Assembly (NCBI GenBank): GCA_030668615.1
Contig: DAOUTQ010000014.1
Location: 1 to 37,027, forward strand
Reading direction: 5' to 3'
Length of the DNA: 37,027 nt
Source of the DNA: Bacteroidales bacterium
Lineage (GTDB): Bacteria; Bacteroidota; Bacteroidia; Bacteroidales; UBA12077
The notes beneath the pieces were generated by a model. That model saw only the letters and a list, made by a program, of their open reading frames with translations, ran no database searches and was not told the DNA's origin. Within the stretch, counting starts at the first letter, position 1. Every line of letters begins with the position of its first letter. Below are positions 32,518 to 35,871 of this stretch, piece after piece. Both the position numbers and the translations under genes were made by a program.

Positions 32518-33411
32518 ATGATGAAAAAAATAGCACTAACATTAGTTACCTTAATTATTGCATTAGGTGTTTTTGGTCAGGATCCTGAGCCAAATGTTGA
32601 TGAAATGAAAGAAGAACTAAAGAATCAACAAGATGATACTACCAACATCAGATTCAAAAGAAAAACAGTAAAAATCATTGAAGATGATGGAGAAACTCAA
32701 ATATTTGTGAAAAAACACAATAGAAATGACGATTGGGACTGGATGTGGGACGATGATGACGGATTTACAGGCTCTTGGTCAGGATTCTCAATGGGTTTAA
32801 GTAATCTTGTTGATCAAAATTTCTCATTTAGCCGTGATGCTGCAATAGATGGATATATGGATTTAAATACTGGGAAATCCTGGAACATGAATGTGAACTT
32901 TGCACAATACAGTATTAATTTTGTAAACGAGCAGTTTGGATTAGTTACTGGTTTAGGAATTGAATGGAACTACTATCGTTTTGATGGGGATAATTCAATA
33001 CAAGAAAATGCAGCTACAGGAGAAATTGAGCCGGTTGATATATTAATTACTCACCCAGATTGGAATATAGAAAAGTCAAAACTTTCAACTACATATGTAA
33101 CTCTACCAATTTTACTTGAAGTTCATAGCTCATCATATCAACACAGCGGAATAGTGTTTTCTGCAGGAGTTATTGGAGGTGCTAAACTTGGTTCAAACAC
33201 TAAAATTGTATACAAACAAAACGGAAATAAAAATAAAGATAAAACAAAGGATGATTTTAATTTGTCGCCTTTCAGATATGGTGTTCATGCACGACTTGGT
33301 GTAGGAGACTGGATGATTTATGGAACATATTACTTTACTCCAATGTTTGAAAGTAATAAAGGACCAGAACTATACCCACTATCAATTGGGTTTGCCCTGT
33401 CTTTTGAATAG
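32518..33411 (+). CDS. Outer-membrane beta-barrel protein (porin/PorT-like)
   Basis: Signal peptide MKKIALTLVTLIIALGVFGQ; barrel-like strands; terminal SIGFALSFE. Confidence 0.75.
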   Translation: MMKKIALTLVTLIIALGVFGQDPEPNVDEMKEELKNQQDDTTNIRFKRKTVKIIEDDGETQIFVKKHNRNDDWDWMWDDDDGFTGSWSGFSMGLSNLVDQNFSFSRDAAIDGYMDLNTGKSWNMNVNFAQYSINFVNEQFGLVTGLGIEWNYYRFDGDNSIQENAATGEIEPVDILITHPDWNIEKSKLSTTYVTLPILLEVHSSSYQHSGIVFSAGVIGGAKLGSNTKIVYKQNGNKNKDKTKDDFNLSPFRYGVHARLGVGDWMIYGTYYFTPMFESNKGPELYPLSIGFALSFE

Positions 33412-33430: not shown

Positions 33431-33462
33431 AAAAAGCCGTCTTTTTTAAGACGGCTTTTTTT
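33431..33462. terminator. Rho-independent terminator (bidirectional)
   Basis: AAAAAGCCGTCTT-tttt-AAGACGGCTTTTTTT. Confidence 0.92.
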
Positions 33463-33495: not shown

Positions 33496-33618
33496 TTAAT
33501 CTTTCTTTGGAGGAACATCATCATCATCGGTTGTTGAATAAATAAAAGCATCCATAGCTTTTTTAGCATCAGCTCCGCCTTTAACATATTGCATTTGTTT
33601 AATAGTTAAAATTTCCAT
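33496..33618 (-). CDS. 40-aa double-glycine leader peptide (putative secreted signal/bacteriocin-like precursor)
   Basis: MEILTIKQMQYVKGGADAKKAMDAFIYSTTDDDDVPPKKD; residues -12 L, -11 T, -8 Q, -7 M, -4 V, -2/-1 GG fit the GG-leader pattern; not in supplied ORF track. Confidence 0.65.
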   Translation of the reverse strand: MEILTIKQMQYVKGGADAKKAMDAFIYSTTDDDDVPPKKD

Positions 33619-33646
33619 AATTTTATTTATTAGGTTAATAATCTAA

Positions 33647-33654
33647 CAAATGTA
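33647..33654 (-). promoter_or_regulatory. Candidate -7 element TACATTTG for the GG-leader peptide
   Basis: TAnnTTTG on the minus strand, about 28 nt upstream of the ATG at 33618. Confidence 0.45.
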
Positions 33655-33822: not shown

Positions 33823-35871
33823 ATGAGAGTTTCGTTTTTATTTCTTTTCTTATTCCCGAGTATTCTATTTGCACAAACATCTAAAATTGATAGTTTAAAA
33901 ACCCTACTAAACCGCCCTGATGATTCTTTAAAAGTAGAATTGTTACTTGATATTTATGAGGAACATGAACAGGGAAAAATCTTATTAGGAAAAGAATATT
34001 TAGACCAAGCATATGAACTTACAGAAGATTTAGATGATAAATATTTAGAAGCTTCTGTGATGCTGCGATATGGAAATTTTTATAATATCACGGGTGACTT
34101 CGAAAATGCAATTACTTACATTACGAAAGCAAAAGAAATTTGTGAAGAAGAGAATTATCATAAAGGAATTGGCAATGCATATAACAACTTAGGCAACACA
34201 TACGAAAAACAGGGCAAATATGATGAAGCTATGGACTGTCTTATTAAAGCCCTTAACATATATGAGAGCATGCATGATTCTATGGGTATGGCAAAAAGCT
34301 TGTTAAATATTGGCCTCTTGTACTCAAGGCAAGAAGACTATGAAAAAAGCTTAGAGCTTTATAATAGATCATTGGACATTAGAGAAAAAATAAACGACAA
34401 AGAAGGAATTGCTCTTCTTTATAACAATATCGCCATAGTAAATTATTATTTAAATGATTTTGATAATGTAAGAAGTTATTTTGAAAAGGCGTATAAAATA
34501 TATGTTGAAATAGGAAATCAGAGACGACAATTAATGGCTTTGTCAAACATTGCCGAAGTCCATCATATGATAGGGCAAAAAGAAAAGGCTCTTGCGACAT
34601 ATTTTAAAATCCTTGAATTAGAAAAAGAACTTGGTCATAAAGCTGAGTTAGCGCAAACTCATTTTCAGATAGGAAGCTTATATGAATCAAGGGGCGATTT
34701 TCAAAAGGCAAAGAAACATTATTACTTAAGTCTTGAAATTGCGAAGGAAATAGGAACATTAGTTGATACTCGTGATGCTTACGGGCAATTAATGGAGATT
34801 TTTAAAATTGAAAAGAATTTTGAAAAGGCATTATGGTATAACGAAATGTATTTTGCACTAAACGATTCTATTTTTAATGCTGAAAAATCAAGACAGATTC
34901 AAGAAATAGAAACTCAATATGAAACAAAGAAGAAAGAGCAGCAAATTAAAAACTTGGAAAACGAGCAATTAATTAGTGATCTAAAGATTAAGAAACAGAG
35001 GATTTTCGCATTTTCTTTTTTCATGGGATTTGTCTCTATTTTTGTATTTCTATTAGTACTATTTTATCAGATAAGAAAAATTAGAAAAGCAAAAGATTTG
35101 CTTACGTTTCAGAAAAAACAAATTACAGATAGTATTGAGTATGCAAGCCGAATTCAAACTGCAGTGCTGCCACCAGGTGAATATATCTCTAAGCTTATAC
35201 CTGAACACTTTATTTTTTATAAACCAAGAGATATTGTTAGCGGAGATTTTTACTGGATAACACACAAAGAAGGAAAAACAATAATAGCAGCTGTAGATTG
35301 TACCGGGCATGGAGTTCCTGGAGCCTTTATGAGTATGCTTGGTTTTGCATTCTTAAATGAAATTGTAAATAAAAGCACAGAAATAAAAGCCAGTGCTATA
35401 TTAAATCAACTCAGAGATTATGTGAAAAAATCCTTACATCAAACCGGAAAAGATGACGAAACAAAAGATGGGATGGATATTGCACTTTGTATAATTGATA
35501 CAGATAAGCTTAAATTACAATATTCAGGAGCATATAATCCTTTATACCTTATTAGAAATGAGAAGCTTATTTCATTAAAAGCAGATAGAATGCCAATAGG
35601 CATTCATTTAATAGAAAAAGAATCTTTTACAAACCATGAAATAGATATTCAAAAAGGTGATACAATTTATGTTTTTACTGATGGCTATGTAGATCAGTTT
35701 GGTGGACCAGATGCAAGGAAGTTTAAGTTATTGCCATTTAAAGAAATGCTCTTAAAAATTAAAGATCAATCAATGGATGAGCAAAAAAGAATGCTTGAAG
35801 AACAATTCTACGCATGGAAAGGAGATTCTGAACAAATTGATGATGTTTTAGTCATGGGAATTAAAATATAA
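33823..35871 (+). CDS. TPR - transmembrane - SpoIIE/PP2C-type serine phosphatase
   Basis: Signal; TPR array; TM (FAFSFFMGFVSIFVFLLVLFY); SGDFYWITHKEGKTIIAAVDCTGHGVPGAFMSMLG...FTDGYVDQFGG. Confidence 0.93.
   Translation: MRVSFLFLFLFPSILFAQTSKIDSLKTLLNRPDDSLKVELLLDIYEEHEQGKILLGKEYLDQAYELTEDLDDKYLEASVMLRYGNFYNITGDFENAITYITKAKEICEEENYHKGIGNAYNNLGNTYEKQGKYDEAMDCLIKALNIYESMHDSMGMAKSLLNIGLLYSRQEDYEKSLELYNRSLDIREKINDKEGIALLYNNIAIVNYYLNDFDNVRSYFEKAYKIYVEIGNQRRQLMALSNIAEVHHMIGQKEKALATYFKILELEKELGHKAELAQTHFQIGSLYESRGDFQKAKKHYYLSLEIAKEIGTLVDTRDAYGQLMEIFKIEKNFEKALWYNEMYFALNDSIFNAEKSRQIQEIETQYETKKKEQQIKNLENEQLISDLKIKKQRIFAFSFFMGFVSIFVFLLVLFYQIRKIRKAKDLLTFQKKQITDSIEYASRIQTAVLPPGEYISKLIPEHFIFYKPRDIVSGDFYWITHKEGKTIIAAVDCTGHGVPGAFMSMLGFAFLNEIVNKSTEIKASAILNQLRDYVKKSLHQTGKDDETKDGMDIALCIIDTDKLKLQYSGAYNPLYLIRNEKLISLKADRMPIGIHLIEKESFTNHEIDIQKGDTIYVFTDGYVDQFGGPDARKFKLLPFKEMLLKIKDQSMDEQKRMLEEQFYAWKGDSEQIDDVLVMGIKI

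Follow-up and report, generated by a model that had tools for sequence, protein, structure and literature searches.

Peptides made with a double-glycine (GG) leader usually act as signals or bacteriocins, and their cores are unrelated. Among the closest known systems are the bacteroidetocins, PCAT-exported GG-leader bacteriocins of the Bacteroidetes (PMC6671954). RaxX of Xanthomonas is a GG peptide that works by imitating another organism's peptide (PMC6637879), and the DNA-packaging protein HU (DNABII) is present outside cells and on extracellular DNA (PMC9445418).

Here we analysed a small GG-leader gene in a 37,027-nucleotide stretch of Bacteroidales DNA (hereafter the window). A sequence-only reading had proposed a GG-leader gene of uncertain role at this position; the gene itself stands, but that reading had missed that its core matches the cell's own HU, and its overall interpretation is only partly supported.

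Results

The gene is a 40-aa ORF on the minus strand with an ATG start (33496–33618; leader MEILTIKQMQYVKGG, core ADAKKAMDAFIYSTTDDDDVPPKKD), identified by ORF checking and a leader-pattern scan, and its translation is exactly the one that had been quoted. The 15-aa double-glycine leader (33574–33618, minus strand) shows the canonical spacing previously claimed for it (L-12, S/T-11, E/Q-8, L/M-7, I/V-4, GG). Across window ORFs of 24–110 aa, this pattern matched once, compared with 0 per window in 60 order-2 Markov surrogates, in which a relaxed version of the pattern reached 0.017 per window. ORFs of the form MAEWSNAAVLKTVV...GTGGSNPSFSAK that were caught by the leader pattern look, by eye, like translated tRNA genes and were dropped. 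The predicted 25-aa mature peptide is free of cysteine, as had been noted, and consists of an HU-like part (33529–33573, minus strand) followed by an acidic tail, DDDDVPPKKD (33499–33528, minus strand). This tail is not HU-derived and looks similar to the DDDLWPP tails borne by GG peptides of the genus that are linked to an exporter.

Profile searches placed the precursor in no described family: no Pfam or NCBIfam model scored above cut-off for the 40-aa ORF, a weak match to PF19154 (DUF5836) covered the leader only and was uninformative, and the curated precursor models for modified RiPPs (lanthipeptide, rSAM TIGR04149) gave no match. Within the window no modifying enzyme adjoins the ORF, the flanks being OMP and TPR-SpoIIE genes, and a plasmid tblastn returned no match. 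While the window leader itself has no NCBIfam match, its sister leader in the MAG GLR59 scores 18.6 bits against TIGR01847 (bacteriocin_sig; cut-off 15.7).

Comparison with the HU encoded in the same genome (L022, 868–1140) revealed that the predicted mature peptide begins with ADAKKAMDAFIYSTT, a near-copy of HU residues 19–33 (ADAKKALDAFITSTT; 13/15 identical). The window peptide thus has the arrangement by which we recognise the family, a GG leader directly or shortly before a near-copy of an HU segment; it does not contain the full 90-aa HU fold, as HU 19–33 alone is present. Taken by itself the match is modest, with E 0.05 for the 40-mer in a whole-genome search and E 0.6 in the reverse search with HU as query, and it would be suggestive alone, becoming convincing only through its joint pattern with relatives. 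Residue 16–31 matches in ORFs of 94–106 aa were at one point regarded as chance HU hits, a view that was dropped once syntenic peptides proved to carry HU C-termini.

We collected the loci around the neighbouring OMP gene from congeners, all genomes compared being MAGs or drafts, and scanned them for GG-leader ORFs. In four related MAG species, this site, flanked by the OMP and TPR-SpoIIE genes, likewise holds a GG-leader peptide on the same strand, with a different piece of HU from that in the window. The cores of G001 (leader MKNFEQLSACQMQQIKGG, core DNPVVIISDGTSGFKAGSDLNGKVQ), G016 (leader MKKFKKLTIAQLQKIKGG, core DDSGTTPKKVVKFKAGNDLADEVS) and G011 (leader ending in VTGG, core KSIVKFKAGSDLADAVNKI) end in the HU C-terminus; the G011 contig stops before the TPR-SpoIIE gene, leaving the OMP side alone visible. 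In GLR59 (L121), the core NPTTGKPITIKGKI carries HU 62–74 behind a leader, MKKLTIKQMQNVKGG, that is almost identical to the window leader. Further HU-fragment genes lie away from the shared site: G017 has a GG peptide about 4 kb downstream of it (leader ending in IRGG, core VKFKAGSDLADAVQAP), and the window genome has a second HU-fragment gene on contig C5 (L021 1534–1695; leader MKLEILTSDELRKIKGG, core DAGSDLSNTVQEPIVDPDPDETVKFKAGSDLSNTVQ) with two copies of the HU C-terminus. An acidic PDPDE linker separates these two copies. Across the HU-fragment GG peptides, the segments used are HU 19–33, 62–74 or the C-terminus, 74–90, sometimes in tandem, which we take to correspond, in that order, to helix alpha-2, the arm that binds DNA and the strand/helix at the C-terminus. 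At the DNA level, the G011 locus (contig C132, L072 368–453) contains a perfect tandem copy of the HU C-terminal core (AAAATTTAAAGCAGGAAGTGATTTAGCTGACGCAGTCAATAAAAT twice) whose second unit is out of frame; either the sequence was duplicated very recently or the assembly is at fault here.

The distribution of these peptides is patchy. Most of the 17 species compared lack a peptide at the shared site, and presence is scattered on the OMP-protein tree (5 changes for 6 carriers), which implies that gain, loss or both are frequent. A lack of conservation beyond close strains, which the sequence-only reading had named as counting against the gene, holds for the exact ORF, which has no full-length homologue in 97 relatives; since four related species have GG-leader peptides at this site, it does not hold in the relevant sense. 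Outside the genus, no HU-C-type peptide was found in 394 order-level and 398 phylum-level genomes at the thresholds used. A GLR59 peptide query against 116 relatives retrieved HU genes only, and no report of HU-fragment GG peptides turned up in the literature searched.

The local context and upstream sequences fit an independent gene. The ORF is convergent to an OMP beta-barrel gene (OMP_b-brl_2; 32518–33411, plus strand; profile and relative loci) and divergent from a TPR-SpoIIE phosphatase gene (33823–35871, plus strand; ORF list and profile), which together serve as syntenic anchors. This arrangement, along with a C39 exporter in the genome, agrees with the free-standing GG-leader precursor gene proposed earlier. 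The TPR-SpoIIE gene adjoining the peptide site is degenerate in GLR59 (L121 7330–7645) and G009 (L030/L125). The promoter-like element that had been reported upstream of the ATG is present as TACATTTG (33647–33654, minus strand), which by sequence reading is a candidate Bacteroidetes -7 element 28 nt before the start codon; TATCTTTA occupies a similar place in G001, G017 and GLR59. Upstream comparison also uncovered a 5′-leader motif common to HU-fragment peptide genes, GATTATTAACCT in the window (33632–33643, minus strand), with counterparts GTTATTAACCT in the C5 gene and G017 and ATTATTAACT in GLR59. Upstream of most HU-fragment GG-peptide genes stands TAtcTTTA and, after it, GTTATTAACC or a sequence like it. 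On the 3′ side, a hairpin scan recovered the strong bidirectional hairpin described before, at 33431–33460 between the OMP gene and the ORF, terminator-like on both strands (shuffles give 0.1). Because it lies 20 nt past the OMP stop codon, it may serve mainly the OMP gene.

Statistical comparisons set the HU-fragment cores apart from other GG peptides of the genus. Seven HU-fragment cores aligned to HU with z 7.2–13.6 (0/20,000 shuffles as high), compared with z ≤ 3.0 for 29 other GG cores. The broader proposal of housekeeping-protein mimicry by every GG core was set aside as far as HU is concerned, as these 29 do not match it. Conversely, when HU was used as query against 20 congener genomes, the matches besides HU and its full-length paralogues were four short ORFs (E ≤ 1), all of them GG-leader ORFs. 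Six cores pooled against their own HU genes gave pS 0.71, near synonymous saturation, and pN 0.10, a low value that owes something to ascertainment because amino-acid similarity was how members were identified; with that qualification, the values argue against a neutral ORF with a ratio near 1, another outcome that had been named as counting against the gene. The saturation of synonymous sites alongside few amino-acid changes indicates that the cores are not recent DNA copies and that HU-like amino acids have been kept.

These data bear on whether the peptides are non-functional debris, produced by chance insertion of HU pieces behind a GG leader or left as remnants of a fusion of a GG leader to full HU. 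Their patchy presence, the frameshifted perfect tandem copy in G011 and the degenerate neighbours in GLR59 and G009 would fit such an origin. It is nevertheless disfavoured by the amino-acid constraint, visible also in the C5 tandem copies, which are the same in protein but not in DNA (10/10 amino acids identical, 5 synonymous changes), and by the fact that no gene joining a GG leader to full HU was found in 20 genomes; in several genes, moreover, the HU piece is joined in frame just past the GG. We therefore regard debris as highly improbable.

As the sequence-only reading had stated, the window contains no C39 gene. It had pointed to the rest of the genome for C39-ABC and HlyD genes, and one complete C39-ABC exporter with an HlyD neighbour lies there, on contig C113 and so unlinked to the window peptide gene. 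The exporter (733 aa, C39 E=1e-33) aligns over its full length with PCAT1 (4ry2) and ComA (8hf4), and the motifs QLDAMDCG, NHFVVV and DPARG were recognised by eye. An HlyD-like adaptor follows (TIGR01843, 5e-26, below the model cut-off), and a kinase-like protein and two LytTR-like proteins are encoded upstream (domains by eye). C39 exporters occur in 18/20 congeners. In several of these, a DDDLWPP-tailed GG peptide is encoded no more than about 8 kb from the exporter, for instance in G017 (contig C119) and G019 (contig C134), where the distance is about 3 kb.

The window genome also has a DDDLWPP-type GG peptide, at the end of contig C154, whose tail the DDDDVPP tail of the window peptide resembles. 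This peptide (L166 365–521; leader MKTLRNTFGNNENKKSMIIFSDILNMNEMILIKGG, core EGDPDDDLWPPTDDDDN) is interrupted by the contig end and is likely the main exporter substrate of the genome. The leader of the G011 HU peptide is of a type that recurs in two GG peptides from contig C13 of that genome, about 5 kb from a C39 exporter. GG peptides with this leader type and the core GKVGGFAVSGRSPS are located at L073 7764–7892 and 8201–8329 (G011 C13) and at L079 547–675 (G015 C84). At L074 (G008 C116), L162, L077 and L165, GG-leader peptides occur in clusters and end in short, conserved tails, for example TSRDNDFD or TQKDNDFD.

Another conceivable role is that of a signal or decoy, in which a receptor would sense HU fragments, for example from lysed kin, and the peptides would trigger or block it. 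Plasmid-coded inhibitor peptides that block enterococcal pheromones derived from lipoproteins offer a parallel. Different HU pieces on one leader type would suit epitope-like recognition, and a histidine kinase and two LytTR proteins adjoin the exporter (domains by eye); yet no receptor is linked to the peptide gene, and we consider this role quite improbable.

Discussion

Building on the ORF, leader, HU match, shared site and exporter genes read directly from the DNA, we infer that the window ORF probably encodes the precursor of an exported HU-mimic peptide, one member of a genus-level family of HU-fragment GG peptides. The C39 domain of the PCAT, acting with the HlyD adaptor encoded beside it on another contig, would cut off the double-glycine leader, and cleavage and export would release a 25-aa peptide whose first 15 residues reproduce the alpha-2 helix of the HU made by the same cell. 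Across the genus, different HU pieces follow GG leaders, at a single favoured site and in two or more other locations. Mimicry is the likeliest mode of action: the exported peptide would replace HU at a surface used by HU or by an HU-recognising partner, whether that surface lies in the extracellular matrix or in closely related cells whose HU is nearly identical. More tentatively, the family may constitute a secretion system for interchangeable HU fragments maintained by selection, a form of peptide presentation or self-mimicry that offers different epitopes per species at one slot.

Two specific versions of where such peptides could act deserve consideration. They might poison competitors, as narrow-spectrum, bacteriocin-like peptides that enter close kin and prevent HU from dimerising or from binding DNA by passing for one of its segments. 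HU is 86–100% identical among congeners in which a canonical HU was found, and the pieces carried take in the DNA-binding arm as well as helix alpha-2 and the C-terminal strand/helix. The GLR59 leader scores above the bacteriocin_sig cut-off, and bacteroidetocins, themselves PCAT peptides, also have leaders of 15 aa (PMC6671954). However, no immunity gene or import route was seen, the cores have neither cysteine nor an evident amphipathic killing motif, and the various HU pieces would each have to block in a different way, making poisoning unlikely.

The peptides might instead compete with or modulate HU on extracellular DNA in biofilms, thereby altering matrix stability. HU occurs outside cells and in the biofilm matrix of many bacteria (reviewed in PMC9445418), where PCAT export would bring the peptides, but an isolated alpha-2 helix is no DNA-binding element and the host genus is uncultured; we judge this role, too, to be improbable.

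If exported HU mimicry is real, cores that swap HU segments while their amino acids appear to be constrained would mark HU, or a molecule that recognises it, as an extracellular bacterial target. The family could also tie peptide secretion to the HU found on extracellular DNA, or to competition among kin. Our comparisons suggest that exported peptides imitating a housekeeping protein form a family not described before. They also yield a search rule, a GG leader followed by part of a housekeeping protein, that is usable on any genome.

Set against known systems, the window peptide shares parts with each. With bacteroidetocins it has in common a 15-aa GG leader, a Bacteroidetes host and a C39-ABC exporter in the genome, whereas bacteroidetocins contain cysteines in the mature peptide and sit in a four-gene cluster with a TM protein, a thiol oxidoreductase and the exporter; the window gene has neither the cysteines nor the cluster, and its core is an HU copy. 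Class II bacteriocins and ComC-type signals (PF10439, PF03047, TIGR01847) are alike in leader type, with weak profile matches to leaders of the family, but the window core is unrelated to bacteriocin or competence peptides and matches HU (PF00216). HU itself supplies the core segments, as near-copies of residues 19–33, 62–74 or 74–90, although the peptides hold only 13–17 of its 90 residues behind an export leader and cannot form the HU fold. RaxX offers a parallel in principle: it is a GG-leader peptide processed by its exporter (RaxB), and in its mature form it imitates a peptide that derives from a protein and has another function. RaxX, however, mimics a plant hormone, is tyrosine-sulfated and is clustered with its exporter, whereas the window family draws on different segments of the cell's own HU. 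We propose that these HU-fragment cores represent a new form within the known PCAT/GG peptides.
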